A stretch of DNA of 64,000 nucleotides. It comes from Alphaproteobacteria bacterium UBA4588 (GTDB lineage Bacteria > Pseudomonadota > Alphaproteobacteria > Rhodobacterales > Rhodobacteraceae). Below, piece after piece: positions 12,013 to 29,158 of the stretch. The stretch is taken from NCBI GenBank assembly GCA_905182195.1, contig CAJJAW010000003.1:124001-188000 (forward strand). Direction: 5' to 3'. The notes beneath the pieces were generated by a model. The model had not been told where the DNA came from. It searched no databases and saw nothing but the letters and a program-made list of their open reading frames with translations. Within the stretch, counting starts at the first letter, position 1, and each line of letters opens with the position of its first letter. A program made the translations under genes and the position numbers.

Positions 12013-13192
12013 TCTGCTTTCCAACAAACTGGCCCGGCAGCATTTCCTAGATCGCAACCGCCTACGAATACCGCCGCTTAGTACCTCGCTCCAAATCGTA
12101 TTGGGCCAACTCAACTTTGTGCAAGTCGACAGTATCAACACAATGGCGCGGGCCCATGATCTAATCCTATGGTCGCGGCAACAATCCTACCGCCCCACTG
12201 ATTTGCGCAAGATGGTGGATATGGACCGCAGCGCCTTTGAAGCCTGGACGCATGACGCCTCGATCCTGCCAATAGTGGCCTTCCCCCACTGGCAGCATAA
12301 ATTTATTCGCGACGCGGCATTGTTACAAGAGCGCTGGAAATCTTGGCACCAGGGCGATTTTTTACCGCAAAGCCAAACGGTATTGGATCAAATTGCCAGC
12401 TAAGGCCCGGTTGGGTCAGGCGATGTTGGTGCGCAGGAAAAACGCGGCAATGGCGGTTGGTGGGACTGGCATCCATCCAAAACCGCACTGGAATATCTAT
12501 GGCGCACCGGCCGCATTGCCGTCACTCGCCGCGAAGGTTTTCGCAAGATTTACGATTTGGTCGAAAACGTGATCCCCAACGCCTATTTGCACCAACATCC
12601 CTCCCCAGATGACAGCACCGATTGGGCCTGCCGCTCGGCCCTTCAGGCCATGGGCTTTGCCACCAAAAAAGAAATCGCCAAATTTTATGATTTTGTGACG
12701 ATTTTAGATGTGATGCGCTGGTTGGACCCAAAGCAGGCTGACGGGGAAATCCGTTGGATCCATGTTGAGGCCGCAGACGGCACGTCTCGCACAAGGGTTA
12801 TATTTGAGCAGGATTGGGAGACATTGCAAACTCCGCTGCCATACTCCCAAAGAGTGCGCATCCTAAGCCCCTTCGGTCCAGCTCTGTGCAACAGGCAGCG
12901 CACGCAGGAGCTCTTTGGGTTTTCGTACAGGATTGAGATATTTGTTCCCGCAGCCAAGCGCGTCTACGGCTACTATGTCTTCCCGATGTTGGAAGGCGAC
13001 CCATTTATTAGCCGCATTGAGGTCAAAACAAATAAACTAGAGAGAACAGTAGGCATTTTAGGCATATGGCCGGAAGACGCAACACGCCTTTCTCCCGCAC
13101 GCAAGGCCCGTATTCAGGTCGAATTGACCCGACTGTGCGGCATGGCAGGCTGTGAGGGATTGAGTGGCCTTGAAGTCTTAGCCAACGCCTAG
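11993..13192 (+). pseudogene. YcaQ/AlkX-like winged-helix DNA glycosylase, internal stop
   Basis: Family PF06224, DNA glycosylases that unhook interstrand crosslinks. The first 136 codons encode LARQHFLDRNRL and NFVQVDSINTMARAHDLILWSR; the VQVD stretch matches the Q-x-D active-site type of the YcaQ branch. A TAA at 12401-12403 interrupts the frame. The same frame then continues without shift through GPVGSGDVG, GGWWDWHPSKTALEYLWRTG and EGFRKIYDLVENVIP to 13192, all family-typical. So this is one gene of about 400 codons with a single nonsense codon, real or an artefact. It overlaps the end of glk and stops four bases from the convergent rdhA. Confidence 0.85.
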
Positions 13193-13196
13193 AGCG

Positions 13197-16100
13197 CTAG
13201 ATATCCAATTTTAAAACCCCATTCGCCTGCAGTGCCCGGCTTTGGCATAGGATGATGGTGGTTTCACGTTGCGCCGCGGAGAGAACAAAATCTCGATGCT
13301 CCACCTTGCCTGAGGTCACCGTGCATTTACACACACCGCACAGACCATCCGAACACTTCACATCCACAGGGATCCCCGCCGCGATCAAGGCATCACTTGC
13401 CGACTGATCAGCTCTCACAGTAAGTCTTTGACCATTGCTGCGCTCAATCTCAAACGGCAGATTGACCCAATCAGGCATATCAGGCAAGGTGAAGAACTCC
13501 GCATGCATTGCCGCATCAGGATACCCTAGGGCACGGGCATGATCCAAAATTGCGCTCATATAGGCATCCGGTCCGCAGACATAGATATGAATGTCCGGCG
13601 CATAGGGCGGAACCACAGATGCAATATCTAAACGGCTGCCTTGATCGGAATAATGCGTGCTGGTTTTTGCGGCCCAAGGCTGCGTTGCAAAATCACCGTC
13701 AAACGCGGCTAAGGCCAGCGTACTGGCAGAATACATCAGCTTAAACTCACGCCCTGCATGATCCAACTCATGGGCAAAGGCAATCATCGGTGTGACACCA
13801 ATCCCGCCGCCAAAGAGCAACGACAGGTTGGCCGAGGGCGCAAGATGAAAATGGTTGATAGGTTTGGAGACAAACACCCGCCGGCCTTGCTCAAAAATAC
13901 GTTGCATCAGCTTAGAGCCGCCACGGCCGTCAGGCTCGATCAACACCGCAATTTCATAGCAGCTACGATCCAAAGGATTCCCACACATTGAATATTGTCG
14001 CAAAAATTCCGGCGCCACAACAATATCCAAATGCGCCCCTGCGGTCCAAACTGGCAGATCCGCGCCATCAGCGGCCACTAATCTATATTTTTTCACACCG
14101 CCTGCGCAGTCTGTCACCTGATCCACAGTCACCTGAATAACTGGCGCTAACTGGTCGCTGTGGTATAGATGCAAGTGATCGCGCGCGCCAGAGGCGGATT
14201 TAGCCTGATAGGCCTCTGCGGTAATCATGGCTTGATAGGCCTCAATGCCAGCTTCACGGTCCATTGGGGCTGGATAGGGATAGGGGTGTGGCGCCAAGGG
14301 CGCAGGATAAACCGCCAAGGTTTGATCGGCGTACTTAAGATCCAGATCCTTTTGTAGCGCCCGCGCATTCGCCACATGAGGGCTGGGCGCATAGGCCCCA
14401 TCATCGGTCAGTTCCAGATCCCACCACCATTTTTTTACAGGGTTCAACTCACCGTGGCCGGCCACATCATCGAGCTTAGCCAAAACAGACGCCATCTGCG
14501 GCACATTCATCGCGGCCCAGCGGAACGGCGCTTCCGAAAACAACCCCTCAAGGTTCCAAGGGCAAGTTTTCATGCAGCGCCCACACATCGCCCCACCGGG
14601 GGTGTTGATCCGGTAGGTCGCACATTTTTGACTGTCAGACTTCCAAATTTCATAGCCATTAAACATCAATTTTGGTCCGGCGGTGATCGCCCCAGACGGG
14701 CATTCGCGCGCGCATTTGTTGCAGCTGTCACAGAATTTTTGTAGGCCAAAATCAATAGGTTTGTCATGGGCCATGGGCAGTGAGGTGGTAACTGCACCTG
14801 ATTTCAATCGTGGGCCCAGAAACGGGTTTAAAATCACCTCACCAATTCGGCTAACCTCCCCCAGCCCCGACAGCAGCAGCAACGGTGGTTGCAGCACCTC
14901 GCCATCCATCACCGTATGGGCCTTGGCCGAATAGCCCATATTGCGAATATGTTGGGCCAAAATGCCCCCGAGCAACGAAAAACGTAGATAGGCTCGCATG
15001 GATTGCGCCACGCTGATCCAATCATCACCCGAAGCCCCCTCCATGGTCTCGAACCCTTGATCGACAATCATGCTGACCGCATGGTCATGCGGCGGAATGA
15101 TTGGCGTGCCGCGGGCATCATGGGAATACCAGCTCCACTCCGGGCAGCGCGACAGACCGGTGGCGTCAATGCCCAAAAAGTAACTGGTCCCTTTTATGTT
15201 TTTGGCCGCAAGCTCAGGGGGAATTTGTTGGACCTCTTGGGCCGGATCACCGTCCTGCAACAGCACAAAGGCCCCCAAAAGCCGCCGTTGCGCACTGCTG
15301 GGCGCAGCTTTGCGGACATAATGGCCTCCCGTTGCGCCTTTTTGTACCTGCGGACCCATATCGCCAAACTGCGCTCGCGCAAACATATCGGTTCGTTTAG
15401 GCACCCGCGCAATATTCGGCTCATCCATATAAGTAGTGGGTGTCTCCACCCGTTTGAGCGTCTCAAATGGATGCGCCCCACTGACATAATCACGCCCCGC
15501 ATAGGGGTCGTGATTGCCACGGCTGGCACCACCATGCCGTCCCATGATCCAATCGAGGGACTTCAGAGCCAATTTGGGCTGTGTCGCCACTAAGGGCTGA
15601 TCATAGGCCAAGGGCATATCTGTCGTCACAGCGGCCAAGCCAAAGCGGTTGCCCAGCCAAGGATGAGTGATTTCATCTCCCTCAACCTGTGCTAAGCCCG
15701 CTTTTACCGCCAACCGGGACAGCTCGACATCACTAGTGGTGGCCGAATGCGCCCGGGCACTGAACCCCAATACCCGAAGATAATTGGCCAGTACGGTTGC
15801 GGTTTCTGTGCTCAAAACCGCAGCGCGTTCGGCCTGCGCATCTTGCACCCAGTCACAGCCAACCTCATCAGGCCCAGGGTCGCGGCGGTAGTCCACCAAA
15901 AACACCAAAGCCCCGGTATGCTGGGTGATAGGCATGGGCTTTGTAGCCATGCTTTCCTTGAGATCGGCCATAATCATATCAATGCCCGCAGCCAAGGTTT
16001 TGGTCTGTCTTGTACTCAAAGCATGGGCCAGACGAGCCACTTCAGGATTAAGGCGCGCACTTGCCAGATGGTCATCAGCAACCAACTCCGTAATTCCCAC

Positions 16101-16397
16101 AATTGCTATATCGTTGAAATAGGCAAATGCCTTTAGGTGATTGGACCGTTCTTGCAAATCTGCTGGAATGTCCGAAATCACCGGGTGTGCACTGCCATCG
16201 CGCACCGCATCCATCATGGCTTGAAATTCCGCCATCGCAGGCACAATACTGGCGCTCCCAGCAGGACGCTGGAAATCCAACATCGGCCAAGGGGCGAGGG
16301 TCGAGAGATCCGGGTACTGCTCGCTGCGCATTAGCCGCTCGGTAGGAAAGCGGCCCATATGGATGGGGCGGTTCCGATCTGAAAACAGCTTACTCAT
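13197..16397 (-). CDS. Self-sufficient reductive dehalogenase (RdhA fused to ferredoxin reductase)
   Basis: A 1066-residue corrinoid/iron-sulfur protein. Residues about 1-620 are RdhA-like, with a duplicated scaffold: LGFSARAH..HPWLGNRFG near 210-255 is echoed by MGYSAKAH..NPFLGPRLK near 487-532. Two [4Fe-4S] motifs follow: C556/C559/C562/C566-P and C592/C605/C608/C612-P. Residues about 740-1066 form a phthalate-dioxygenase-reductase type module: flavin motif RQYSMCG, nucleotide site FGGGIGVTPM, and a plant-type [2Fe-2S] site C1015/C1020/C1023/C1051. There is no Tat signal and no RdhB anchor nearby, so it is probably cytosolic and NAD(P)H-driven, like BhbA of Comamonas and NpRdhA of Nitratireductor. 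The ATG at 16397 overlaps the coxI stop in ATGA. The substrate is unknown; halogenated phenols are the family precedent. Confidence 0.9.
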   Translation of the reverse strand: MSKLFSDRNRPIHMGRFPTERLMRSEQYPDLSTLAPWPMLDFQRPAGSASIVPAMAEFQAMMDAVRDGSAHPVISDIPADLQERSNHLKAFAYFNDIAIVGITELVADDHLASARLNPEVARLAHALSTRQTKTLAAGIDMIMADLKESMATKPMPITQHTGALVFLVDYRRDPGPDEVGCDWVQDAQAERAAVLSTETATVLANYLRVLGFSARAHSATTSDVELSRLAVKAGLAQVEGDEITHPWLGNRFGLAAVTTDMPLAYDQPLVATQPKLALKSLDWIMGRHGGASRGNHDPYAGRDYVSGAHPFETLKRVETPTTYMDEPNIARVPKRTDMFARAQFGDMGPQVQKGATGGHYVRKAAPSSAQRRLLGAFVLLQDGDPAQEVQQIPPELAAKNIKGTSYFLGIDATGLSRCPEWSWYSHDARGTPIIPPHDHAVSMIVDQGFETMEGASGDDWISVAQSMRAYLRFSLLGGILAQHIRNMGYSAKAHTVMDGEVLQPPLLLLSGLGEVSRIGEVILNPFLGPRLKSGAVTTSLPMAHDKPIDFGLQKFCDSCNKCARECPSGAITAGPKLMFNGYEIWKSDSQKCATYRINTPGGAMCGRCMKTCPWNLEGLFSEAPFRWAAMNVPQMASVLAKLDDVAGHGELNPVKKWWWDLELTDDGAYAPSPHVANARALQKDLDLKYADQTLAVYPAPLAPHPYPYPAPMDREAGIEAYQAMITAEAYQAKSASGARDHLHLYHSDQLAPVIQVTVDQVTDCAGGVKKYRLVAADGADLPVWTAGAHLDIVVAPEFLRQYSMCGNPLDRSCYEIAVLIEPDGRGGSKLMQRIFEQGRRVFVSKPINHFHLAPSANLSLLFGGGIGVTPMIAFAHELDHAGREFKLMYSASTLALAAFDGDFATQPWAAKTSTHYSDQGSRLDIASVVPPYAPDIHIYVCGPDAYMSAILDHARALGYPDAAMHAEFFTLPDMPDWVNLPFEIERSNGQRLTVRADQSASDALIAAGIPVDVKCSDGLCGVCKCTVTSGKVEHRDFVLSAAQRETTIILCQSRALQANGVLKLDI

Positions 16398-17364
16398 GGG
16401 GATTTCATCCTCAAACACTGAGTGATTTCCGCCAGAATTGACAAAGCAATCTCAGCCGGGGACTTGCTGCCAATGGGTAATCCTACAGGCCCCTGAATAC
16501 GGTCAAATTGTTTAGCACTTACGCCTAACTCCATCATCGATAAGCGTCGTTTTGCATGAGTTCGGGTCGAGCCCAAAGCCCCCACATAAAATGCATCAGT
16601 CTCCAAAATAGCTCTCAGCGATGGCGTGTCCATTTTCGCATCATGGGTCAATGTCACCATGGCTGTGCGGTCGTCGATAGTGAGGCCTGCCAATGCGTCC
16701 TCTGGCCAATCTATAATCAGCTCGTGGTCCGGAAACCTCTGAGGGCTGGCAAAGGATTCGCGTGGGTCGACGATGGTCACGTGATAGCCGGCCATTTGCG
16801 CCATAGGCGCCAGGAACTGTGCAATATGCACCGCACCAATCAACACCAAGCGCAGGGGAGGGTTTTGAATATGGCTATAGATATTTCCCACAACACCGCC
16901 CAGGCCTCCAAAACTCTCAGAGTGGGTTTGCGGCGTGATAACGGCATGCTCCCAAGTCTCCAAGTTAATCTGCAGGCCCAAGGCTTGTCGAGAGGCCTCG
17001 GCTTGGGCCAATGCGTCCAGTGTCGCTACCGCAATTCCCTGCCCAAAGCCTACGGGCTCGACCATGATCTTTATGGTGCCACCGCAGGCTAATCCCACCG
17101 CGAAGGCATCCGCATCAGCCACACCGTATTCAAGCAGTTTGCACTTGCCATCCAGCAAGACCTCTAAAGCCTCCAGCACCACAGCCCCCTCCACGCAGCC
17201 TCCTGAAACCGAGCCATGAAAAGATCCATCCTCGCAGACCACCAATTGCGCACCCACAGGGCGCGGCGACGAGCCCCATGTGCCCAGCACAGTTGCTAGA
17301 GCTACCCTATGCCCCTCTCGGTGTAAGCCGCCGCAAGACCGCCCATATGCTGAGATACGTTCAT
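16394..17364 (-). CDS. XdhC/CoxI family molybdenum-enzyme maturation protein, N-terminus frameshifted
   Basis: XdhC/CoxI proteins bind and help sulfurate the molybdenum cofactor of xanthine-oxidase-family enzymes. From a GTG at 17290 the frame gives 298 residues with TWGSSPRPVGAQL, the SGGCVEGAV motif and a C-terminal Rossmann half (VLIGAVHIAQFLAPMA, FYVGALGSTRTH, IGSKSPAEIALSI). Upstream, the ATG at 17364 overlaps the coxE stop in ATGA and encodes MNVSQHMGGLAAAYTERGIG, then runs into a stop. One missing G in the run at 17305-17307 would join it to VALATVLGTWGSS, which is exactly what the family has. I therefore place the start at 17364 and call a one-base deletion or sequencing error. Its stop overlaps the rdhA start. 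Confidence 0.85.
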
Positions 17365-18581
17365 TTTAGCAGTCCCATCAATCTGTTTTTGTGATCCGCG
17401 CGCAAACCATTTCTCAAACCATCTGACAATTCTTGCAGGCTGTCCAGATTATGACAGGCCACGAAGCTCGACACATGCGGCAGCATGGTACGAATGCCGG
17501 CCGCTTGCGGGGAAAACTGGTTCCATCGCAGCAGCGGGTTAAGCCAAATCAGCTCACGGGTTTGCAAGGCCAGCCGCGCCATTTCAGCCTCCAGCTGGTC
17601 AATGCCTTCACGCTCTAATCCATCGGTAATAAGCAGTACCACCGAAGGGGTTGAGAGCACCCGCCGGGCCCAATGCCTGTTGAAATCTCCTAGACTACTC
17701 GCAATCCGCGTCCCCCCTTCCCAATCACATACATGACTTCCAATGGCCCGTAGAGCCGCGTCAGGGTCTTTGATGGTCAGCAAGGGGGAGATGTTGTGCA
17801 GCCGCGTCCCAAAGGTAAAACCGTGCACAGCTGCCCAAGACTGACCCTGCGCCTGCGCCATAGAATGAACAAAATGCATCATCATCCGGCTATAATTGGT
17901 CATAGACCCTGAGATATCACTGAGCACCACAAAATTGAGCCTTCGCGGTTTGGCGCGGCGCTTGGGCAGGTGTATCAGTTCACCGCCGCTCCGCCGCGCG
18001 CTTTGCAGGGCTTTACGGCGGTCAATTTGAACAGCGTTGGGCGCCAGCCCATACCGTCGCCCAAGAACATTGGGCAAATTCAGCCACATTGTACGGATTG
18101 CAGTTTCAGCTACGCGGATCTCTGCCGCAGTCATGTCGTCAAAATCTTTCTGGGTTAATTTTTCCACATTAGAATGAGAAAACTGTGCGTCGATGTCCAA
18201 TTGTTCTTGTTGTGGCATTTGGCGTGGCTTGCCGCCCCCGTCCGCCATGGCTTCAGCAGCCCGGCTTTGCGCCGGCTTCAATGGACGATCAAGCGGCGGG
18301 ACTGTTATAACGGGCAAAAGATTAGTGATCATATTCTCCAAAAACTCAGGATCGCGCCAGAACATCGAAAAAACCTGATCAAATACCAGCAGATACTCTG
18401 CGCGGGTCACAATCATTGCGCGCAAGGTAGTGTGAAAGTCAATGCGGTTGGTGAACCCGACCGCTTGCACCGCGCGCAGGGCCTCGAGTATTTGCGCCGT
18501 GCCCACTGGCACCCCAGCCCGCCTTAAAGCGCGGGCGAAATAGACAATATTATCCGGCAGCGTTCCGGCGGTTGATGTCAT
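17361..18581 (-). CDS. coxE: CoxE-like VWA domain protein
   Basis: Partner of the CoxD AAA ATPase in maturation of the molybdenum-copper or molybdenum active site of CO-dehydrogenase-type enzymes. The 406-residue protein has an N-terminal helical part with Arg-rich and Pro-rich stretches and a C-terminal von Willebrand A domain. The metal-ion-dependent adhesion site is intact as D222-I-S224-G-S226, with VVLLITDGLEREG further on. Its start and stop overlap coxD and coxI by four bases each (ATGA), so translation is coupled. No signal peptide. Confidence 0.93.
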   Translation of the reverse strand: MTSTAGTLPDNIVYFARALRRAGVPVGTAQILEALRAVQAVGFTNRIDFHTTLRAMIVTRAEYLLVFDQVFSMFWRDPEFLENMITNLLPVITVPPLDRPLKPAQSRAAEAMADGGGKPRQMPQQEQLDIDAQFSHSNVEKLTQKDFDDMTAAEIRVAETAIRTMWLNLPNVLGRRYGLAPNAVQIDRRKALQSARRSGGELIHLPKRRAKPRRLNFVVLSDISGSMTNYSRMMMHFVHSMAQAQGQSWAAVHGFTFGTRLHNISPLLTIKDPDAALRAIGSHVCDWEGGTRIASSLGDFNRHWARRVLSTPSVVLLITDGLEREGIDQLEAEMARLALQTRELIWLNPLLRWNQFSPQAAGIRTMLPHVSSFVACHNLDSLQELSDGLRNGLRADHKNRLMGLLK

Positions 18582-19465
18582 TGAAGCTCCTGCATGTCCT
18601 GTTTAATTTGCTCCAAAATACGCGCAGCGGCTCCGCCAGTGATCTTGGCGATGTCATCTTGATATTTAAGTACCGCACCGATTGTGTCGGTGATCACATC
18701 CGGTGACAGCGCCACAACATCCAACGCCACAAGGCATTTGGCCCAATCAAGAGTTTCTGCTAACCCGGGGCGTTTAAACATATCTTCTTTGCGCAGCTTT
18801 TGGATGAAAGCCACAACCTCAAGGCTCAGGGCCAGTTTGGCCTCTGGCACGCGAGCAGTCAGGATCTCCATCTCACGGTCAAAATCTGGAAAATCCACCC
18901 AATGATATAAGCAGCGGCGTTTCAGGGCGTCATGTACTTCCCGGGTTCGGTTGGAGGTCAGAATAACAATTGGCGGATCTTGGGCTTTTATCACACCCAG
19001 CTCAGGTACGGTAACTTGAAAATCCGACAATGCTTCCAACAGGAATGCCTCAAACGGCGCATCTGTGCGGTCGATCTCGTCAATAAGCAAGACCGGAGGG
19101 CCGGAGGCATGTGGTTCGACCGCTTGTAATAAGGCGCGCTTGATCAGATATTTTTCGGCATAGATATCCTCTTCGCCTGCTCCGTCGCGCATGGCCAGCA
19201 TCTGTGCGGCAAAATTCCATTCATAAACTGAGGTCGCCGTGTCCAACCCTTCGTAGCATTGCAATCGTATAAGATCTCGACCCAGCCCTTCAGCTATCAC
19301 TTTGGCCAGTTCAGTTTTGCCAACGCCAGCCTCACCTTCTAAAAAAATAGGGCGATTAAGCGTCAGGGACAGATAGGTCAGTGTGGCCAGGGAACGATCC
19401 GCTACATAGCCCTCTGAAGCCAGCATAGCAGAGGTCTCGTCAATTGATTTAGGCAGATTTTGCAC
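18578..19465 (-). CDS. coxD: CoxD-like MoxR-family AAA+ ATPase
   Basis: Chaperone-like AAA+ ATPase; CoxD of Oligotropha is needed for sulfuration and copper insertion at the CO dehydrogenase site. The 295-residue product has Walker A GEAGVGKT (residues 44-51), Walker B LLIDEIDR (D129/E130), sensor 1 ILTSNRTREVHDALKRR and the LYHWVDFPDF strand. It starts at a GTG at 19465 with AGGGA eight bases upstream. The gene overlaps coxE by four bases and follows coxM by 69 bases. In form II operons the role of CoxD is assumed from form I homologues. Confidence 0.94.
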   Translation of the reverse strand: MQNLPKSIDETSAMLASEGYVADRSLATLTYLSLTLNRPIFLEGEAGVGKTELAKVIAEGLGRDLIRLQCYEGLDTATSVYEWNFAAQMLAMRDGAGEEDIYAEKYLIKRALLQAVEPHASGPPVLLIDEIDRTDAPFEAFLLEALSDFQVTVPELGVIKAQDPPIVILTSNRTREVHDALKRRCLYHWVDFPDFDREMEILTARVPEAKLALSLEVVAFIQKLRKEDMFKRPGLAETLDWAKCLVALDVVALSPDVITDTIGAVLKYQDDIAKITGGAAARILEQIKQDMQELQ

Positions 19466-19534
19466 GATATTTATCCCTAAACAGGCAACACCAGCCCCAA
19501 ATTTTGGAGCTGGTGCAAGACGTTAATCAGCGGG

Positions 19535-20362
19535 TTATGCCAAAGCGCGTTTGGTCATAACCTTGATCAAATTAGCCCGGTAAGCCGCATTTCCGTGCAG
19601 GTCAGACATGAGCCCATCCGCAGAGACCTCGACCGCCTCCACCGAAGCAGCAGACCAATCTGCAGACAGAGCAGCCTCAAGTCCCGCGTGGCGATAGACG
19701 CCATTATCGCCCGCCCCAGTAACTGCAACGCGTACGTCACCTTCAACAGATTTGGCTACAAACACGCCGGCCATGGCATAGCGCGACGCTGGGTTAGGGA
19801 ATTTACCATAACCAGCCACGGCCGGGGCCTGAAAGCTTACCGCTGTGATGATCTCATCATCCGTCAATGCAGTTGCAAACATGCCCTTAAAGTAGTCAGC
19901 GGCGGCAATCTCACGGGCGTTGGTGTGGATTGTAGCACCCAGAGCCAGCAAGGCTGCAGGATAATCCGCAGCGGGGTCGTTATTGGCGACAGATCCACCG
20001 ATGGTGCCGCGATGACGTACGGCGGGATCACCAATATTGCCCGCTAATTGGCAGATCACTGGGCAAACCTTAACCAACTCCGCGTCACCCGCCACTTCCG
20101 AATGGGTAGTCATGGCGCCAATGGTGATTGTCTCGCCGCCTTCGGCTTTCATGATGCCCATCTTTTTGCGCTTGGTAATGGTAATGCCGCGCAGCGCAGA
20201 TACTTGGCTCAGATCGATCAAATCTGACGGCGCGGCCAGCCTTTGCTTCATTGTGGGGATCAAAGTCTGCCCCCCGGCCAATATTTTTCCATCGTCTGAT
20301 TTGGCTAATAGTGCTGCCGCGTCTTGCGCCGTGGAAGCTTTATGAAAATTGGTCTCATACAT
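19535..20362 (-). CDS. coxM: CO dehydrogenase-type medium (FAD-binding) subunit
   Basis: FAD subunit of a xanthine-oxidase-family heterotrimer, passing electrons from the [2Fe-2S] subunit to quinones or another acceptor. The 275-residue protein shows both FAD motifs, AGGQ (residues 29-32) and TIGGS (120-124), with GDPAVRHRG just before the second. The ATG at 20362 has AAGGAG eight bases upstream. It sits 12 bases after coxL, so the transcription order is S-L-M, which differs from the M-S-L order of the classic form I operon and agrees with form II. Confidence 0.94.
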   Translation of the reverse strand: MYETNFHKASTAQDAAALLAKSDDGKILAGGQTLIPTMKQRLAAPSDLIDLSQVSALRGITITKRKKMGIMKAEGGETITIGAMTTHSEVAGDAELVKVCPVICQLAGNIGDPAVRHRGTIGGSVANNDPAADYPAALLALGATIHTNAREIAAADYFKGMFATALTDDEIITAVSFQAPAVAGYGKFPNPASRYAMAGVFVAKSVEGDVRVAVTGAGDNGVYRHAGLEAALSADWSAASVEAVEVSADGLMSDLHGNAAYRANLIKVMTKRALA

Positions 20363-20374
20363 CGTCCAAACTCC

Positions 20375-22735
20375 TTATTCAGCTGCTAATTTTATGCTGA
20401 CATCCTGCAATGCGGTCCAAACCGCAGCGGGGGTGGCAGGCATAGAAAGGTTATTGTTGCCAATGGCATCTGTGATCGCATTAATCACCGCGGGCGGTGA
20501 TCCAATAGCTCCGGCTTCGCCACACCCCTTCATCCCGAGCGGATTGCCGGGACATGTGGTGGAGGAGTGATGCACAGAGTAATTTGGCAAATCGTCTGCC
20601 CGTGGCATGGTGTAGTCCATGTAGCTGGCAGACAATTGTTGTCCAGCATCATCATAGACCACATTTTCAAACATCGCCTGGCCAATGCCCTGCGCAATCC
20701 CGCCATGCACCTGGCCTTCCACAATCATCGGGTTTATGATCGTTCCAAAGTCATCAGACGCAACAAATTGAACAACCTCAGTGACGCCGGTCTCTGGATC
20801 CACTTCAACCTCACAGATGTAACATCCAGCTGGGAAGGTGAAATTAGTTGGATCGTAGAACGCACTTTCCTTGAGGCCCGGTTCCATCCCTTCAGGAATG
20901 TTGTGCGCGGTATAGGCGGCAAGTCCAACTTCATGCCAAAGCATCTGTTTGTCCGTTCCAGCAACTTTCACAGCGCCGCCTTCAATCACGATGTCATCTT
21001 CGCCCGCTTCCAAAACATGTGCGGCGATCTTTTTGACCTTTGCCTCCACCTTGTCCATAGCTTTCACTATGGCGGACATACCCACTGCACCAGAACGGGA
21101 CCCATAGGTGCCCATACCAAATTGTACTTTGTCTGTATCACCGTGCACAATTTGGATATTCTCTGTTGGAAGGTCAAAACGTTCAGCTACAATCTGTGCA
21201 AATGTGGTTTCATGGCCCTGGCCATGGCTGTGAGACCCCGTGAGTATCTCAATTGTGCCGACAGGATTGACGCGAACTTCAGCACTCTCCCACAGTCCTA
21301 CACCTGCGCCCAAGCTGCCAACAGCCGCTGAGGGTGCGATGCCACAGGCTTCGATATAATTTGAATACCCCAAGCCGCGTAGCTTGCCTCGCGTTGCCGC
21401 TTCTGACTTGCGAACCGCAAATCCCGCCACATCGGCAGCATCCTGCGCCTGTTTTTGGTTGGCCGCAAAATCACCGCTGTCATAGGCCATAATTACTGGC
21501 GTTTGATGCGGGAAAGACGTTACAAAGTTTTTGGCGCGTAACTCAGATGGATCAACGCCCATTTCACGCGCCGCCGTTTCCATAATGCGCTCAATCACAT
21601 AGCAAGCCTCTGGCCGCCCCGCGCCGCGATAAGCATCAACCGGTACGGTGTTAGTATAGACCGCCTGCACATTGCAGTAAATATTGGCAATATTATATTG
21701 TCCCGAGAGTAGAGTGGCGTAGAGGTAAGTTGGGACTGCCGAGCTGAACAGGGACATATAAGCGCCAAGATTGGCCTTGGTTTCAACCTTCAAACCCACG
21801 ATCATGCCGTCTTTGTCAAAACCGATTTTTGCCTTAGAGACATGGTCCCGGCCATGGGCATCGGTTAGGAAAGCTTCAGTGCGATCTGACGTCCACTTGA
21901 TGGAGCGCCCGGATTTCATCGCCGCCCACAGGCAGGCAATTTCTTCTGGATAAATATAGATTTTAGACCCAAATCCACCACCAACATCAGGTGCGATCAC
22001 GCGTAATTTATGCTCAGGCGCAACATTATAAAATGCTGATAATACCAACCGCGCCACGTGGGGGTTTTGACTGGTCGTATAAAGCGTGTAGTGATCTTCA
22101 GCCTCGTTGAACGTGGCAATGGCCGACCTTGGTTCCATCGGATTAGGCGCCAAGCGGTTGTTGGTAATATCCAGTTCCGTCACATGCGCCGCCGCAGCTA
22201 AAGCAGCGTCGGTTGGGGCCAAATCACCTATTTCCCAATCAAAAATCAGGTTGCCGGGAGCATTGTCATGCAGCTGCGGCGCACCTTTCTCAAGAGCCTC
22301 AACGGATCCAACGACTACCGGCAGCTCTTCATATGTGACGACCACAGATTCCGCGGCCAATTTAGCCAGTGACTTTGTATCGGCCACAACTATGGCCACG
22401 GCATCTCCAACATAGCGCACTTTTTCAGTAGCCAAAGCCGACCATGCGCCCATATTCATTGGGCTACCATCTTTTGAAGTTACACCCCAGCCACAAATAA
22501 TATTGCCAATGCCATCGGCAACCAATTCTGGGCCCATGAGAACTGTTTCAACACCTTCCATTTTCATGGCCGCAGTGGTGTCGATCGACACGATACGCGC
22601 ATGGGCATGCGGGCTGCGTACAAACGCGGCGTAGGCCTGGTTATCCTCAACTATATCGTCTGTATAGCGGCCTTTGCCAGTTATGAATCTTTTGTCTTCT
22701 TTACGTAAGACGCGGGCTCCAATTCCTTCGGACAT
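20375..22735 (-). CDS. coxL: Form II CO dehydrogenase-type large (molybdenum) subunit
   Basis: Catalytic Mo-MCD subunit of a xanthine-oxidase-family hydroxylase, 786 residues. The active-site loop is AYRGAGR (residues 368-374). This defines form II (BMS); form I CO dehydrogenases carry AYRCSFR with the copper-binding cysteine. The catalytic glutamate is in GCGEAGAIG (E740). Other cofactor stretches are APDVGGGFGSK and GSHSHGQGHETTFAQI. I chose the ATG at 22735, which has GGGGGA about seven bases upstream; the ATG at 22741 sits directly on that site. CO oxidation by form II enzymes is disputed, and the loop equally fits an organic-substrate hydroxylase, so the true substrate is open. Confidence 0.94.
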   Translation of the reverse strand: MSEGIGARVLRKEDKRFITGKGRYTDDIVEDNQAYAAFVRSPHAHARIVSIDTTAAMKMEGVETVLMGPELVADGIGNIICGWGVTSKDGSPMNMGAWSALATEKVRYVGDAVAIVVADTKSLAKLAAESVVVTYEELPVVVGSVEALEKGAPQLHDNAPGNLIFDWEIGDLAPTDAALAAAAHVTELDITNNRLAPNPMEPRSAIATFNEAEDHYTLYTTSQNPHVARLVLSAFYNVAPEHKLRVIAPDVGGGFGSKIYIYPEEIACLWAAMKSGRSIKWTSDRTEAFLTDAHGRDHVSKAKIGFDKDGMIVGLKVETKANLGAYMSLFSSAVPTYLYATLLSGQYNIANIYCNVQAVYTNTVPVDAYRGAGRPEACYVIERIMETAAREMGVDPSELRAKNFVTSFPHQTPVIMAYDSGDFAANQKQAQDAADVAGFAVRKSEAATRGKLRGLGYSNYIEACGIAPSAAVGSLGAGVGLWESAEVRVNPVGTIEILTGSHSHGQGHETTFAQIVAERFDLPTENIQIVHGDTDKVQFGMGTYGSRSGAVGMSAIVKAMDKVEAKVKKIAAHVLEAGEDDIVIEGGAVKVAGTDKQMLWHEVGLAAYTAHNIPEGMEPGLKESAFYDPTNFTFPAGCYICEVEVDPETGVTEVVQFVASDDFGTIINPMIVEGQVHGGIAQGIGQAMFENVVYDDAGQQLSASYMDYTMPRADDLPNYSVHHSSTTCPGNPLGMKGCGEAGAIGSPPAVINAITDAIGNNNLSMPATPAAVWTALQDVSIKLAAE

Positions 22736-22746
22736 GATCATTCCCC

Positions 22747-23229
22747 CTATACAGTTGTCATCTTGGACGCGCCGTCCGCGATGGATTTCACAATATTATG
22801 GTAGCCAGTGCAGCGGCAAATATTGCCTTCCAGCTCATGGCGGATAGCGTCTTCTGTGAGCTCTTTGCCCTGAGATTGATAACGTGTCACCATATCTGTG
22901 GCGGTCATAATCATGCCAGGAGTACAAAATCCGCATTGCAAGCCGTGGTTTTCTTTAAATGCCACCTGCATGGGGTGCAGGTCGTCTTTTGATTTTGCCA
23001 GCCCCTCAACAGTGGTGATGGCGGCACCCTCAGCGCTTGCCGCTAGCATCGTGCAGGATTTCATAGCTTGGCCGTCAACGTGGACCACGCAGGCGCCACA
23101 TTGGCTGGTATCACAGCCCACATGAGTACCCGTTAAACGAAGATGGTCTCTGATGTATTCGACAAGCAAAGTATTATCTGTCACGTCACGGGACACAGAC
23201 TTCCCGTTCACAGTCATCGCAATTTTCAT
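22747..23229 (-). CDS. coxS: CO dehydrogenase-type small [2Fe-2S] subunit
   Basis: Iron-sulfur subunit that links the molybdenum site to the FAD subunit. The 160-residue protein has the N-terminal plant-type cluster ligands C39, C44, C47 and C59 and the C-terminal helical cluster ligands C99, C102, C138 and C140 (CGFC and CRC). Length is standard. AGGGAGA precedes the ATG at 23229. The stop is 11 bases from coxL, and coxG lies 39 bases upstream in the same direction. Confidence 0.96.
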
Positions 23230-23268
23230 TCTTTATCTCCCTAGCTATTTTTTTTGCTGAGTTAGTTA

Positions 23269-23790
23269 TCAAATTATTATTTTAAACATCCTTAATAATC
23301 TTTGCCAAAGGCTACTTTTTTGTACCAGTTCTTTGTTAACTGGTACATTGGACCCCTCCACCTGAGTTTGAAAGGTTTCGAAAAACTGATCAGCCATTTT
23401 ACTGACAAAGCTGTCAATAATTCGGGAACCCAATTGAGCCAATTTCCCACCGATTTGGGCCGTTACAGCGTAGCTTATTTTTGTGCCAGCACCATCAGCA
23501 ATCAAAGTGACATCTGCGCCGCCTCGGGCAAAACCGGCAACTCCGCCCTCGCCTTTGCCACTTATACGCAGGCTCTGCGGAGCGTTAAGGTCACTCAGTT
23601 GAACAACACCTTTAAATGTAGCCTTTACTGGCCCCACCCGTTGCACAACTGTCGCCTCAAACCCTTCATCGACATTGCCGGTGAGGCTTTGACACCCTGG
23701 CACACATTCTTTTAAAACGCTTGGGTCAAGCAAACACTCCCAAACTTTTTCAGGAGTGGCTGCGATGGTGCGGTTATCTTTAAAATCCAA
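23269..23790 (-). CDS. coxG: CoxG-like SRPBCC family protein
   Basis: SRPBCC/START-fold protein associated with CO-dehydrogenase-type operons; CoxG of Oligotropha helps bind the enzyme to the inner membrane face. The 173-residue product begins MDFKDNRTIAATPEKVWECLLDP, then CVPGCQSL, VGPVKATFKG and a Gly-rich GKGEGGVAGFARGG strand, all typical. The C-terminal tail is basic then hydrophobic (LLRMFKIII), which could be the membrane contact. The start is a TTG at 23790 with GAGG eight bases upstream; a TAG two codons before it rules out an earlier start. It is the first gene of the cox-rdhA operon. Confidence 0.88.
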   Translation of the reverse strand: MDFKDNRTIAATPEKVWECLLDPSVLKECVPGCQSLTGNVDEGFEATVVQRVGPVKATFKGVVQLSDLNAPQSLRISGKGEGGVAGFARGGADVTLIADGAGTKISYAVTAQIGGKLAQLGSRIIDSFVSKMADQFFETFQTQVEGSNVPVNKELVQKSSLWQRLLRMFKIII

Positions 23791-24190
23791 ATACTATGCC
23801 TCAGCATTATTGTGACAGGGCAAAGATAAGCCATGCCCTTTTATAAACGTTGACTCGAGGGTAAGTGGAAATATTTATTATGCAAGCTGCACATGATATT
23901 TAAAAAATTTAAAAGATATTTTTCTTAAAAATGAATATATTCATAATGTGTTACGCTACCTGATTATAATTTTTTTAAATCACAAAAAATAGGGCTGGTA
24001 CCAATATCGAATCAAGTATGCTATTGAAGACTACAAACTCAAAATTACTGGGCGGAGTCAAACCGTGTAGATATGGCACCGCCATATGAGCCATATTGCA
24101 TAAATCTCCCTGTAAAGGAGGCCACACCCTTGGGCCTATTTACCCAATAGTTTAATTATCAGTTCTATTAAAAAGTTATTTCAAATGGCT
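23791..24190. other. AT-rich intergenic region upstream of the cox-rdhA operon
   Basis: Four hundred bases with no coding frame. It should hold the operon promoter, since transcription of coxG runs leftward out of it. Two symmetric elements are visible: a 14-bp perfect palindrome at 23931-23944 and a hairpin ATATGGC-ACC-GCCATAT at 24071-24087. The second could end transcription of the upstream dehydrogenase gene, although it lacks a T run. Confidence 0.6.
23931..23944. promoter_or_regulatory. Perfect 14-bp palindrome upstream of coxG, candidate operator
   Basis: ATGAATATATTCAT reads identically on both strands and sits about 140 bases upstream of the coxG TTG start. It is a plausible site for a dimeric regulator of the cox-rdhA operon. 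The AT-rich surroundings raise the chance of coincidence. Confidence 0.35.
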
Positions 24191-25078
24191 TTATAAAACA
24201 TCAAGCCCGTTTTGATCGCATAGTTCCAGGTAAAGAGCTGAGTGATCAAGTTTTGCGCCGCCTAAGTCATTCACTAATCTTCGAAACCGGTCACGGGTAT
24301 TGACCAAAGTTGGCAATGTAATCCCAAAACTTTCGGCTTCTGCCAGTGCATTTTCAAGATCCTTTAACTGCAATTCACTCAACCCACCCGGGATGAAATT
24401 ACCGTCTGTCATACGCGCGCCATGCTGCTGCAATATAATACTATCGGCGAAGCCACCCTTCAAAGCCGCCCGCACTGCGGCCGGGTCCGCCCCACCTTTT
24501 TGCAGCATCAACATGGCCTCGGCGACAGCCGCGATTGTGATTGCCACAATGGCTTGATTTGCTAATTTAGCCAATTGACCCGCCCCCACGGGGCCCACAT
24601 GTACAGGCGTTCCCATGGCACCCATTGCAAACCTGACGGTTGCAAAATCCTCCGCTGCACCACCTGCCATGATAGCAAGGTTTGCCTCTTCGGCACCTTT
24701 AGTACCTCCAGACACCGGAGCATCCACATAATGCACCCCCAGCAGCCCCAAATCATCGGCCGCAGCGCGGGCTTCTTCTGGCTTGATCGAGCCCATCTCG
24801 ACCCAGACTGTTCCCGGGCTCAGAGCAGCTCGCAATTTGGGATCTTTTTGCACTAAATTCCCCGTTGGACCATCCGAAAGCATCGAGATTACAATATCCA
24901 CACTCGCAACGGCATCGGCGGCTGCTAATGAAATTTTAGCCCCGAAAGTAGCTAACGGTTCCGCCTTAGCGGCAGTGCGGTTCCAGACAGTTGTATCCCA
25001 GCCGGCTTGGCAAAGGTTTTGTGCCATCGGCGCCCCCATCAAACCTGTGCCTAGCAAAGCAATTTTTTGTACTGACAT
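24191..25078 (-). CDS. NAD(P)-dependent beta-hydroxyacid dehydrogenase (GarR/MmsB-like)
   Basis: Member of the 3-hydroxyisobutyrate/tartronate-semialdehyde reductase family, interconverting beta-hydroxyacids and their semialdehydes. The 295-residue protein opens with the dinucleotide fold IALLGTGLMGAPMAQNL, then has the substrate-binding DAPVSGGTKGAEEANLAIM, the catalytic lysine in GQLAKLANQAIVA and the FIPGGLSELQLKDLENAL C-terminal helix. The ATG at 25078 has AAAGG 11 bases upstream; an in-frame ATG at 25120 adds only a weak leader. It is divergent from iolB. The precise substrate cannot be fixed from motifs. Confidence 0.9.
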   Translation of the reverse strand: MSVQKIALLGTGLMGAPMAQNLCQAGWDTTVWNRTAAKAEPLATFGAKISLAAADAVASVDIVISMLSDGPTGNLVQKDPKLRAALSPGTVWVEMGSIKPEEARAAADDLGLLGVHYVDAPVSGGTKGAEEANLAIMAGGAAEDFATVRFAMGAMGTPVHVGPVGAGQLAKLANQAIVAITIAAVAEAMLMLQKGGADPAAVRAALKGGFADSIILQQHGARMTDGNFIPGGLSELQLKDLENALAEAESFGITLPTLVNTRDRFRRLVNDLGGAKLDHSALYLELCDQNGLDVL

Positions 25079-25422
25079 AAATTTATAACCTTTTTCAAAT
25101 TGAGGCTTTACTGCTACCAACCAGATAAAGCCAATGTCCGTTTACGAAGAACGTGGGGCTTCTACAAAGAAAAATCACATCTACCATTAAGATAAAAGGG
25201 TCACACGTTGGTTTATATATTTCCCTAACGTTGCGCCGCGTTACCCGAGGATTTTTTTGTTGGGCGGATAGTATAGCTGCAACTAATTGTATTTCGTAAA
25301 AGAAACATAGCGCCCCCAGTTTTAAAAAGCTTTTATGAATATGTTAGACTGTTAAAATAAATATTTGTGTAATTGCATCGCCTGTCGCCGAAGATAGCTT
25401 AGATGCTTTAAAAGGAACCGCA
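25079..25422. other. Divergent promoter region between dehydrogenase and iolB
   Basis: A 344-base stretch without genes, between two genes transcribed away from each other. An inverted repeat TAACG..CGTTA with an 8-base loop occurs around 25226-25243. No recognisable regulator box was found. AAAAGGA before 25423 is the iolB ribosome binding site. Confidence 0.5.
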
Positions 25423-26247
25423 ATGGCCAATCTTTTGAGAAAACCCACTAACACATCGAGTAAATGCCACAATATAACTACAGAGAGTGCCAACTGGGGA
25501 TATGTAGGGTTCGGCCTTTATAAACTGCAGGCTGGCGAGACAGTGAAGGAACCCACAGATGACCTAGAGGTCATATTGGTTTTGGTCGAGGGCAAAGCGA
25601 TGGTCACTGCGGCAGGCCAAGATTTTGGAGAAATGGGTGAACGCATGTCGGTGTTTGAGCGCCTGGCACCACATTGCCTTTATGTGCCCAATGGTAAGAT
25701 ATGGGAGGCCACAGCCACTACAGCCTGCACCTTGGCAGTTTGCACAGCGCCTAGTAAAGGTAGCCACAGCGCGCAACGCTTGGGGCCAGAAGGCATCACG
25801 CTCACCCAACGCGGCAAAGGACAAAACACCCGTTTTATAAACAATATTGCCATGGAAGACCGCGACGTGGCCGACAGCCTGCTGGTTACCGAGGTTTTTA
25901 CGCCAGCGGGCAATTGGTCCAGCTACCCCAGTCATCGCCATGATGAAGACAACTACCCAGACATGACCTACCTGGAAGAGACCTACTACCACCGCCTGAA
26001 CCCCTCCCAAGGGTTCGCGGTCCAACGCGTCTATACCGAAGATGGATCCTTGGATGAAACCATGTCAGTTGCGGATGGGGACGTAGTCTTAGTGCCCAAA
26101 GGCCACCACCCGTGTGCAGCACCTTATGGTTATGATCTCTATTACCTCAACGTGATGGCAGGCCCCTTACGCAAATGGCGATTTAAAAACGATCCTGCCC
26201 ACGACTGGATAGCGCAACGAGATGCAGACGCCCCATCGCCCTCTTGA
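25423..26247 (+). CDS. iolB: 5-deoxy-glucuronate isomerase
   Basis: Cupin-fold isomerase of myo-inositol catabolism converting 5-deoxy-glucuronate to 5-dehydro-2-deoxy-gluconate. The 274-residue product has the family-specific WGYVGFGLYKLQAGE opening, the metal-binding PSHRHDEDN with a following LEETYYHR glutamate, and PKGHHPCAAPYGYDLYYLNVMAGP. AAAAGGA precedes the ATG. No other iol gene (iolA, C, D, E, G) is in the window, so the rest of the pathway must lie elsewhere or to be partly missing. Confidence 0.93.
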   Translation: MANLLRKPTNTSSKCHNITTESANWGYVGFGLYKLQAGETVKEPTDDLEVILVLVEGKAMVTAAGQDFGEMGERMSVFERLAPHCLYVPNGKIWEATATTACTLAVCTAPSKGSHSAQRLGPEGITLTQRGKGQNTRFINNIAMEDRDVADSLLVTEVFTPAGNWSSYPSHRHDEDNYPDMTYLEETYYHRLNPSQGFAVQRVYTEDGSLDETMSVADGDVVLVPKGHHPCAAPYGYDLYYLNVMAGPLRKWRFKNDPAHDWIAQRDADAPSPS

Positions 26248-26710
26248 GCGCCATAAATATAGCGTGAGATAAAACCTTTATGTAGCCCAAGTATTTAGCT
26301 ATGAAGCTACGCATTGCTCCAAACCGTAGTTTTAGTCCAAATTAGGTTATACACGCATTATTTTGTTACTTAATAAGTCATTTTATACCCCCTATCTTTG
26401 CTATACAAAATCTGGGCTCTGCTTTTGCAAACTTAGTTAAATGCTGCCGGTACTTCAACGGCCGAAGCACTGCGGGAGCTAGGCTCAAATACAGCTGATC
26501 AACTCTAATTACATGCAGGTACTCCGCCCCATGTCATCAGCTGTTACGTCTTGGAAATGGCACTACAAGCCAGTCCCGGTAATGACTGTAAAGGAGATGA
26601 GAAGGCCACTTTCTGGATAAAGTTTGACGTCATCGCCAAAGATTGCACATCCCTAAATGATCAGGAGATTGAAAATGCCTTGAATGGGATAGTACGGGCA
26701 CAAAAAGCTA
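26248..26710. other. Intergenic region with coding-like remnants
   Basis: Between iolB and the ndk terminator there is no intact gene. One forward frame from about 26437 reads coding-like (GTSTAEALRELGSNTADQL, stop at 26506-26508, then onward with no further stop until past the terminator). It has no good start and no family I recognise. It may be the residue of a decayed gene, or chance. Confidence 0.35.
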
Positions 26711-26748
26711 AAACAAAAAAGGGCTGTACTCCTCACATAATACAGCCC
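26711..26748 (-). terminator. Intrinsic terminator of ndk
   Basis: On the minus strand an 8-bp stem GGGCTGTA/TACAGCCC (plus-strand positions 26721-26728 and 26741-26748) with a 12-base loop is followed by TTTTTTGTTTT. It lies 23 bases after the ndk stop codon. Confidence 0.9.
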
Positions 26749-26770
26749 CCTATCAAAATTTTTATGACGC

Positions 26771-27193
26771 TTAACCCACCAGTTCTAGGCCAGAAAAGAA
26801 ATATGCAATTTCTAATGCTGCTGTTTCTGGGGCGTCAGAGCCATGTACTGAATTTTCACCCATCGATTCTGCAAAGTCAGCGCGGATAGTACCGGCTGCT
26901 GCATCAGACGGGTTCGTCGCTCCCATCACTTCGCGATTTTTTGCGATGGCACCTTCACCTTCCAAAACCTGAGCTATAATTGGAGCAGAGGCCATAAATT
27001 CACACAATTCATTATAAAATGGACGTTCTTTGTGGACAGCATAAAATTCGCCTGCTTGTTCCATGGTCAAATGAATTCGCTTTTGCGCAACGATACGTAG
27101 CCCAGCATCTTCAAATTTAGCATTAATCTTGCCGGTGAGGTTCCGTTTGGTTGCATCTGGTTTGATAATTGAGAATGTGCGTTCCAAAGCCAT
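26771..27193 (-). CDS. ndk: Nucleoside diphosphate kinase
   Basis: Transfers the gamma-phosphate of ATP to other (d)NDPs through a phosphohistidine. The 140-residue protein starts [18 protein letters not shown] and holds the active-site histidine in [14 protein letters not shown]. Length is normal. The ATG at 27193 has AAAGGA upstream; an in-frame start 48 codons earlier is not supported. An intrinsic terminator follows. Confidence 0.97.
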
Positions 27194-27314
27194 TTTGGTA
27201 GTCCTTTTATGTATTAGGTTATCATGAATGATTGTCTGGCCGCGCGGTAGCATGGCACAAGCGCGATGAAAAGGTATGATTGACGCGCGGCTAAAGCTAG
27301 GCCATGGGTGCGGC

Positions 27315-29158
27315 ATGTTAAAAATCCAAGATATCACCTATGCCATCGACGGTCGTCGTTTGTTTGAAAACGCCAGCGCCACTATACCAACCGGCCATAA
27401 AGTTGGCTTTGTAGGTCCTAACGGAACCGGAAAAACCACACTTTTTCGCATTATCAGAGGTGAGTTGGCCTTAGAGGGTGGCGAGATTGAACTGCCGCGT
27501 CGTGCAAAAATTGGAGGTGTAGCTCAGGAAGCACCTGCAACTGACCTGTCTTTGCTGGAAACAGTACTCGCAGCCGACATCGAGCGGGCAAACCTTTTAG
27601 CAGACACCAGCCAAGATCCTAATAGAATTGCTGAAGTGCAAACCCGTCTTGCGGATATAGATGCCTGGTCTGCTGAAGGCCGCGCCTCAGCGATACTAAA
27701 AGGGCTTGGCTTTGACGATTCTGCTCAAAAGCGCCCCTGCGCAGATTTTTCAGGCGGTTGGCGGATGCGGGTTGCTTTGGCAGCCGTGTTATTCTCTGCG
27801 CCAGATATTCTGCTGTTGGATGAGCCTACCAACTATCTCGATTTGGAGGGTACTATTTGGCTGGAATCCTTCCTCGCAAGATATCCGCACACGGTTGTGG
27901 TAATTAGCCATGACCGTGATCTTCTAAATCGCGCCGTGGGTGGGATCCTACATCTGGAAAATAAGCAGCTAACCTTTTACCAAGGCAACTATGACACGTT
28001 CGCTAAAACACGCGCTGCCAAGCGCGCAGTACAGGCTGCAGCTGCTAAAAAACAGACAGCTCAGCGAGATCATTTACAAAGCTTTGTTGATCGCTTCAAA
28101 GCCAAAGCCTCCAAAGCCAAACAGGCTCAGTCGCGGGTAAAGGCTCTTGAACGTATGGAGCTGATTACGCCGCCTGAGGAGGTGGCTAAGCGCGTATTTA
28201 CCTTCCCACAGCCTGAAGAGCTTTCACCACCCATCGTGGCAATTGAAAACGGCGCCGTTGGCTACGGTGGGCCAGATATTCTGTCCCAACTGGAACTGCG
28301 CATCGACCAAGACGACCGCATAGCTCTTTTGGGGAAAAACGGTGAGGGAAAATCAACCCTATCCAAATTAATATCAGACCGGCTAAAAACCTCCTCAGGG
28401 CGACTCGTAACCCATAACAAGCTGCGCATTGGATATTTTGCGCAGCATCAAGTGGATGAGCTACATCTTAACGAGACCCCACTGCAACACTTACAATCGG
28501 AACGTCCTGATCACAGCCCTGCCCGTTTACGTGCCATGCTGGCAGGTTTTGGTCTTGGTCCAGATCAAGTGGATACAGTAGTTGAACTTTTATCAGGTGG
28601 TCAAAAAGCCCGGTTATCACTTTTACTCGCCACCTTGCCACATCGCCAAGCCTACTTTTACTGGATGAACCAACAAACCACCTTGATATTGAAAGTCGTG
28701 AAGCCCTAGTTCAAGCTTTAACTACATATTCGGGCGCTGTTATCTTGGTCAGCCACGACATGCACCTACTTTCCTTAGTTGCTGATCGCCTTTGGTTAGT
28801 TTCCGATGGCCGCGTTACCCCTTTTGAACAAGATTTGGCCGCCTACCGGGCCTTTCTATTGGGCGGGCCCGCCCAGAAAAAATCGTCAGAAAAGCCAAAG
28901 ATTAAAAAATTTGGTCGTGAGCACCTTATAGCAGCGCGTAACGAAGTACGGCGTAGTGAAGAGCGCATTGAAAAAATCACAACTATGCATTCCAAGCTTC
29001 AGGAAAAACTGGCCGATCCTAAGCTCTATGAGGATCATAATGTTGTTGATCTGGCCGTATGGCAGAAAAAGTTCCATGAGGTGGAGACTGCTCTTGTACG
29101 TGCCGAGAAGCTTTGGCTCGCGGCAAGCAACACAGTGGATAAACTAGAAAATGGTTAG
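27315..29158 (+). pseudogene. ABC-F family ATPase, frame interrupted by one missing base
   Basis: Soluble twin-ATPase of the ABC-F (Uup/EttA-like) group that acts on ribosomes. The first part (27315-28709 frame) has Walker A GPNGTGKTT, signature FSGGW, Walker B LLLDEPTNYLD, the inter-domain linker rich in Lys/Ala, the second Walker A GKNGEGKST and LSGGQKARLS. It then shifts frame just before the second Walker B. Adding one C after 28647 restores HRPSLLLLDEPTNHLDIES and continues through VILVSHDMHLLS and a C-terminal coiled coil (about 28880-29158). So it is a single gene of about 614 codons with a one-base deletion or a homopolymer read error. Its end overlaps marC by eight bases. Confidence 0.88.

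Follow-up and report, generated by a model that had tools for sequence, protein, structure and literature searches.

JtRdhA of Jhaorihella thermophila is an NADPH-dependent, oxygen-tolerant reductive dehalogenase that acts on bromo- and iodophenols, with 3,5-dibromo-4-hydroxybenzoate as its best substrate; in the available portion of its description, the chlorinated compounds tested were not turned over (PMC10463259). Ros_A3X954, the enzyme of Roseobacter sp. MED193, converts 2,6-dibromophenol to 2-bromophenol, and the accessible text on it also names bhbA (PMC13101508). In NpRdhA (PDB 4ras), Ser422, Tyr426, Lys488, and Arg552 are described in an excerpt of the source as substrate-binding or catalytic (PMC7565698). 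For the molybdenum hydroxylases of roseobacters, S-L-M is the form II gene order, and carbon monoxide (CO) is oxidized only by strains with both forms, as stated in the accessible sections of the genome study (PMC10675870). Form II (BMS) cox operons of roseobacters add D, E, G, and I accessory genes to S-L-M. Here we analyze a 64,000-nucleotide stretch (the window; G000:C3:124001-188000) from the 2.62 Mb genome of a Planktomarina-type roseobacter, in which such an operon, coxG-S-L-M-D-E-I-rdhA, ends in a reductive dehalogenase gene. With a probability of roughly 0.7, a dehalogenase gene of known type moved behind coxI in the ancestor of this clade and is expressed there with the accessory genes, with no need for a substrate shared with the hydroxylase. 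No description of an rdhA-cox arrangement was found in the open-access literature searched, as judged by titles and the beginnings of abstracts.

The eight-gene operon and the coxI-rdhA pair

The original prediction described eight minus-strand genes in this order, with no gap above 69 bases and four-base ATGA overlaps at the last three junctions. The open reading frame (ORF) list and the domain searches of the window confirm the order, strand, and gene identities; the widest intergenic gap, between coxM and coxD, is 69 bases, and ATGA overlaps occur at coxD/coxE, coxE/coxI, and coxI/rdhA. The genes of the operon are:

23269..23790, minus strand: coxG, CoxG/SRPBCC family (PF06240, E 6e-34); first gene of the operon, TTG start
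22747..23229, minus strand: coxS, [2Fe-2S] small subunit (PF01799, PF00111)
20375..22741, minus strand: coxL, molybdenum-binding large subunit, form II type (PF20256, PF02738, PF01315)
19535..20362, minus strand: coxM, FAD-binding medium subunit (PF00941, E 3.9e-42)
18578..19465, minus strand: coxD, AAA ATPase (PF00004, PF07728)
17361..18581, minus strand: coxE, VWA-domain protein (PF05762, E 6.8e-52); ATGA overlap with coxD
16394..17364, minus strand: coxI/xdhC, molybdenum cofactor maturation factor (PF13478, PF02625); ORF 16394-17290 open
13197..16397, minus strand: rdhA, self-sufficient reductive dehalogenase (matches to 4ras_A, 2pia_A, and TIGR02486)

Two details of this picture had to be revised. 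The start of rdhA is placed at ATG 16397, giving 1066 residues; a GTG at 16418 (1073-residue ORF) was a purely mechanical ORF call and is rejected, as the ATGA overlap points to the ATG. The coxI frame entered from the ATG of the coxE/coxI overlap stops after 20 codons, and the remainder is in a different frame, for which GTG 17290 is the first start listed. Because three close relatives (G198, G199, and G200) have a single intact 323-residue frame from the same ATGA, we regard coxI of the window genome as broken, either by an assembly error or by a recent mutation. Downstream, a convergent ORF (12557-13192) ends four bases from the rdhA stop.

The comparison covered the 20 genomes of the genus, the window genome among them, and a family sample of 198 genomes from 197 genera. 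The pair is conserved: coxI adjoins rdhA in all nine readable clade genomes (the window genome, G198, G199, G200, G045, G209, G210, G211, and G215); at the junctions read, the two genes overlap by 4 or 8 bases or are 2 bases apart. In G202 and G208 the contig is cut 5' of an rdhA of 80-82% identity. Among 80 named rdhA loci, coxI lies directly before rdhA in five (L002-L006), which come from the same genomes as G198, G215, G210, G211, and G209 and do not add to the count, and L007 is cut at its upstream side; upstream sequence is missing for one of the 74 others (L034), and none of the remaining 73 has a coxI relative upstream at E 1e-3. The coxI-linked rdhA genes form one clade with support 1.0 in the rdhA tree, comprising 13 of its 171 tips (the tree contains some duplicate records, and two of 173 sequences were dropped as too short). 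The adjacency is thus more than chance, and the tight operon-level coupling of coxI and rdhA originally proposed is borne out within this clade.

The clade contains two arrangements of the remaining cox genes. They lie directly upstream of coxI-rdhA in the window, G198, G199, and G200, so that the joined operon is found in four genomes and not in one alone. In the Planktomarina temperata-type genomes G045, G210, G211, and G215, the pair is directly preceded instead by hibadh, a dehydrogenase gene that lies upstream of coxG in the window; coxSLMDE are found elsewhere, followed by iolB, and the 20-kb stretches read there contain neither coxI nor coxG. In G209 one contig stops inside coxE and another just before coxI. 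Because close relatives keep both parts but apart, we interpret the operon ending in rdhA as a lineage-specific placement and not as a new pathway.

Across the family, the rdhA query has some match at E 0.001 in 160 of the 198 genomes, many to the reductase domain alone; by hand count a long match occurs in 77 genomes outside the window's genus, including the split or truncated copies of G099 and G102 and excluding the weaker ones of G033 and G096. Eight plasmid records also have a match at E 1e-80. When the ORFs of 110 loci (L002-L111, in overlapping sets) were clustered, rdhA was present in 107 loci and any other family in at most 11, so the contexts of rdhA mostly differ; the ORF calling was simple and missed some GC-rich loci, such as L056. 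Within the window's genus, 18 of the 20 genomes have rdhA at E 1e-50, and nine further loci there (L119-L126, L129) carry rdhA of 55-63% identity without coxI. G198 (L124) and G209 (L129) each have a second rdhA, 55-58% identical, elsewhere and without coxI.

Properties of RdhA and of the hydroxylase

From its domains and conserved residues, RdhA is predicted to be a self-sufficient debrominase of the NpRdhA/BhbA/JtRdhA kind, a known enzyme type. It matches NpRdhA (4ras_A, E 1.8e-151) and exceeds the cut-off of the reductive dehalogenase core family TIGR02486 (195 bits; cut-off 160.35), its C-terminal residues 773-1070 match phthalate dioxygenase reductase (2pia_A, E 3e-43), and a PF00111 [2Fe-2S] ferredoxin domain covers residues 995-1062. 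The protein thus consists of a dehalogenase part with two [4Fe-4S] clusters followed by a reductase-like domain and a [2Fe-2S] ferredoxin. The eight Fe-S cluster cysteines are identical in all 14 aligned RdhA proteins, as are the residues at NpRdhA positions Ser422, Met423, Tyr426, Lys488, and Arg552, and at position 419 all 14 have Val instead of Ala. The enzyme would accordingly be a soluble, cobalamin- and Fe-S-dependent dehalogenase driven by NAD(P)H.

A 48% full-length match to RdhA is located on a plasmid of Comamonas sp. 7D-2, in a gene that we take to be bhbA. The MED193 homologue (L055), presumably Ros_A3X954, is 62.9% identical to RdhA; in contrast to the window, neither coxI nor any cox gene lies within 10 kb of its rdhA. 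JtRdhA resembles the window enzyme in its fused phthalate-dioxygenase-reductase-like part and in the same catalytic Tyr, Lys, and Arg, as far as its published description is accessible (PMC10463259). NpRdhA (PDB 4ras; PMC7565698) and BhbA belong to the same family with a conserved active site. The reductase part of RdhA has no counterpart in the solved NpRdhA chain; NpRdhA has a duplicated cobalamin-binding domain, and RdhA was compared with it through a long alignment. From what JtRdhA and the MED193 enzyme convert, ortho-brominated or iodinated phenols are our candidate substrates, and RdhA would probably take off a bromine or iodine adjacent to the phenol hydroxyl.

A respiratory organohalide reductase was considered and rejected: no twin-arginine translocation signal was seen by inspection of the RdhA N-terminus MSKLFSDRNRPIHMG, and the coxI overlap and the convergent ORF leave no room for rdhB beside rdhA. 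The genome search with PF13486 (Pfam Dehalogenase) omitted rdhA of the window, and Pfam at E 0.01 likewise gave no dehalogenase match for it; surveys relying on PF13486 may therefore overlook self-sufficient dehalogenases. The only gene that PF13486 lists in this genome is at G000:C7:166932-167306.

Ratios of nonsynonymous to synonymous substitution (dN/dS) are 0.047-0.101 for rdhA and 0.076-0.131 for coxI in six pairs spanning both arrangements, with several dS values above 1 and near saturation. This purifying selection suggests that rdhA and coxI are both functional in the clade. In G199, rdhA (L127 7807-11005) is split into two overlapping frames that match residues 1-613 and 599-1066, probably through an error in the metagenome-assembled genome (MAG) or a recent break.

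The Roseobacter clade affiliated (RCA) cluster is a major Roseobacter lineage in oceans from the temperate to the polar zones, and the word 'dehalogenase' does not occur in the accessible main text of the RCA genome paper (PMC10675870). An apparently intact, conserved aerobic debrominase in small RCA genomes suggests that organobromine compounds are turned over in open water.

The S-L-M order and the motif AYRGAGR in CoxL, which we take to be the form II active-site motif, identify the cox genes of the window as a form II (BMS) operon. A true CO dehydrogenase was rejected for CoxL (TIGR02416, 627.7 bits; cut-off 991.15). CoxL is below the cut-off for all 13 NCBIfam families listed, the best being glyceraldehyde dehydrogenase (645.1 bits), and CoxI matches the aldehyde oxidoreductase maturation factor best (181.4 bits), also below cut-off. 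For the relocated CoxL of G045, CO dehydrogenase scores highest (653.8 versus 649.2 bits), again below cut-off.

The probable arrival of rdhA and the question of a shared pathway

In the outgroup genome G120, the gene that follows coxGSLMDEI encodes 532 residues and overlaps coxI by ATGA (L130 15367-16965); rdhA of G120 is on another contig. The C-terminal domain of the 532-residue protein is MocA-like (119.7 bits; below the cut-off of 186.45), so this cox operon ends in a MocA-like gene where that of the window ends in rdhA. No close copy of the MocA-like gene was found in G000, G045, or G200, in which the matches are partial and 25-36% identical. We infer as the simplest order of events that GSLMDEI was ancestral, that rdhA was placed behind coxI, at the position of the MocA-like gene, in the ancestor of the Planktomarina clade, and that SLMDE were later relocated in the P. 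temperata lineage, leaving coxI with rdhA. Lying directly behind coxI at the end of the operon, rdhA is probably co-transcribed with coxDEI, the accessory genes, and its translation coupled to that of coxI. Because the P. temperata lineage keeps only coxI with rdhA, a common substrate for the hydroxylase and the dehalogenase is not required. The gene order offers a testable case of an unrelated enzyme in the accessory-gene position of a molybdenum operon.

Several points weigh against this history and against the independence of the two enzymes. The reverse polarity, with cox genes inserted before coxI, is conceivable though less simple. The layout of G209, in which 3.3 kb separate coxS from ndk and neither coxG nor hibadh was seen in that interval, is not an exact match to either arrangement. 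The coxI-rdhA pair has been kept in 9 of 9 genomes even where the structural genes lie elsewhere. A hydroxylase gene occurs within 1.5 kb of rdhA three times against 0.67 expected (P 0.03, with a cut-off set post hoc), and of 14 genomes whose form II coxL reaches 72% identity or more, 9 have rdhA, versus 77 of 196 (P 0.046, uncorrected for kinship). As to the placement of G209, it groups with G120 on long branches in the coxI tree and joins the window's subclade in the rdhA tree (support 0.961).

The original prediction went beyond coupling and proposed hydroxylation plus reductive dehalogenation of one substrate. In such a pathway the hydroxylase would oxidize a brominated aromatic aldehyde (or hydroxylate a brominated ring) and RdhA would debrominate the product, so that co-expression matters. 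The joint operon of four genomes is in keeping with this, as are the aldehyde-type best scores of CoxL and CoxI, below cut-off as they are, and the hydroxylase excess at distances up to 1.5 kb, which is weak and post hoc; the best JtRdhA substrate (PMC10463259) may also be the acid that such an aldehyde would give. We nevertheless consider the shared pathway unlikely. Four sister genomes hold coxSLMDE apart from rdhA, none of the 73 other loci has coxI, and the relocated CoxL of G045 has its highest score, below cut-off, for CO dehydrogenase. Moreover, iolB and sugar-acid-type genes neighbor cox or hibadh, and in other genera hydroxylases are about as frequent near rdhA as chance predicts: the roughly 1185 kb of flank surveyed, with at most about 8.5 kb on each side, holds a large subunit at 4 of 78 loci (L162, L164, L192, and L210) versus 3.5 expected, a rough figure derived from first-look candidate counts. 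A family-wide rdhA-hydroxylase neighborhood is rejected accordingly; of the prediction, the coxI-rdhA coupling is supported and the joint pathway is not.

Among the 74 other named loci, a hydroxylase is present in the flanks of six (L009, L021, L024, L038, L045, and L056; four of them Ruegeria), and L030, L046, and L059 have a short, weak match. A xanthine-dehydrogenase-type hydroxylase of M-S-L order lies directly downstream of rdhA in L021, L024, L045, L056, and L162 (Ruegeria-type), and a relative of it (61-75% identity) is divergent beside a different rdhA in L119 (G206), within the window's genus. As a general rdhA partner this hydroxylase is weakened by the presence of relatives in 60 of the 198 genomes; by hand count 28 of these 60 have rdhA, close to the proportion overall (77 of 196), and just one of the 28 shows the hydroxylase in the rdhA flanks read.

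A narrower version, which we rate as improbable, would give the window subclade a two-step aerobic route for algal brominated phenolic aldehydes, with oxidation to the acid followed by reductive debromination, and with coxI linking the cofactor supply of one of the enzymes to synthesis of its partner.

Less probable still is a direct role of CoxI for RdhA, such as that of a redox or cofactor chaperone, as the reason why the pair is kept without an adjacent hydroxylase. Its retention in all nine genomes with tight junctions and the purifying selection on coxI would fit, but coxI relatives are absent from the 73 other loci with upstream sequence, and two related enzymes were active in Escherichia coli without added coxI, according to the accessible parts of their descriptions and disregarding the XdhC-type proteins of E. 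coli itself (PMC10463259, PMC13101508). In addition, G045 has coxSLMDE without coxI in a 20-kb stretch; the rdhA-linked coxI may therefore be needed in trans for the separated hydroxylase.

An assembly artefact joining two loci, for which the MAG-type data, the coxI frame break, and the split G199 rdhA could speak, can be dismissed, as coxI-rdhA occurs in nine genomes including the single-contig G045 and the isolate IMCC1909, which is placed in P. temperata in the available text of the genome study (PMC10675870).

The coxM-coxD hairpin and neighboring genes

Three further features of the window bear on regulation and context:

19489..19515, minus strand: hairpin in the coxM-coxD gap, 10 pairs with a loop of 7; conserved
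24191..25081, minus strand: hibadh, 3-hydroxyisobutyrate dehydrogenase/tartronate semialdehyde reductase superfamily (TIGR01505, 223.8 bits, below the cut-off of 340.75)
25423..26247, plus strand: iolB, 5-deoxy-glucuronate isomerase (TIGR04378, 346.8 bits; cut-off 205)

The hairpin separates the structural genes SLM from the accessory genes DEI and rdhA. Its stem is present in all nine aligned gaps; 95.6% of alignment cells are paired, and a shift of 1 to 3 columns lowers this to 30.5-55.6%. The covariation signal is modest: a compensatory double change occurs in one pair, a count that does not exceed that of 500 shuffles, and 22 of the 500 reach the covariation score. Occurrence in G120 as well suggests that the hairpin is older than the arrival of rdhA. 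A scan for terminators found 12 against 14.1 expected and did not include the hairpin, presumably because its T run is weak; a promoter scan gave 14 sites versus 11.6 expected from shuffles. The hairpin is possibly a transcript-stabilizing or partial-termination element; in either role it would leave rdhA, together with DEI, less expressed than SLM.

In both arrangements iolB lies within about 5 kb of the cox genes. In L004 the neighbors include a short-chain dehydrogenase/reductase (SDR), a dihydroxy-acid dehydratase that passes its cut-off (1005.2 bits against 684), and a hydrolase that resembles 2,4-didehydro-3-deoxy-L-rhamnonate hydrolase but does not reach the cut-off (432.6 bits against 500). 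The genes near cox or hibadh would fit sugar-acid or aldehyde metabolism better than that of halogenated aromatics. In the window iolB adjoins hibadh (23791-27337), while an SDR gene lies between them in G198, G199, and G200; the difference is a local gene loss or rearrangement.

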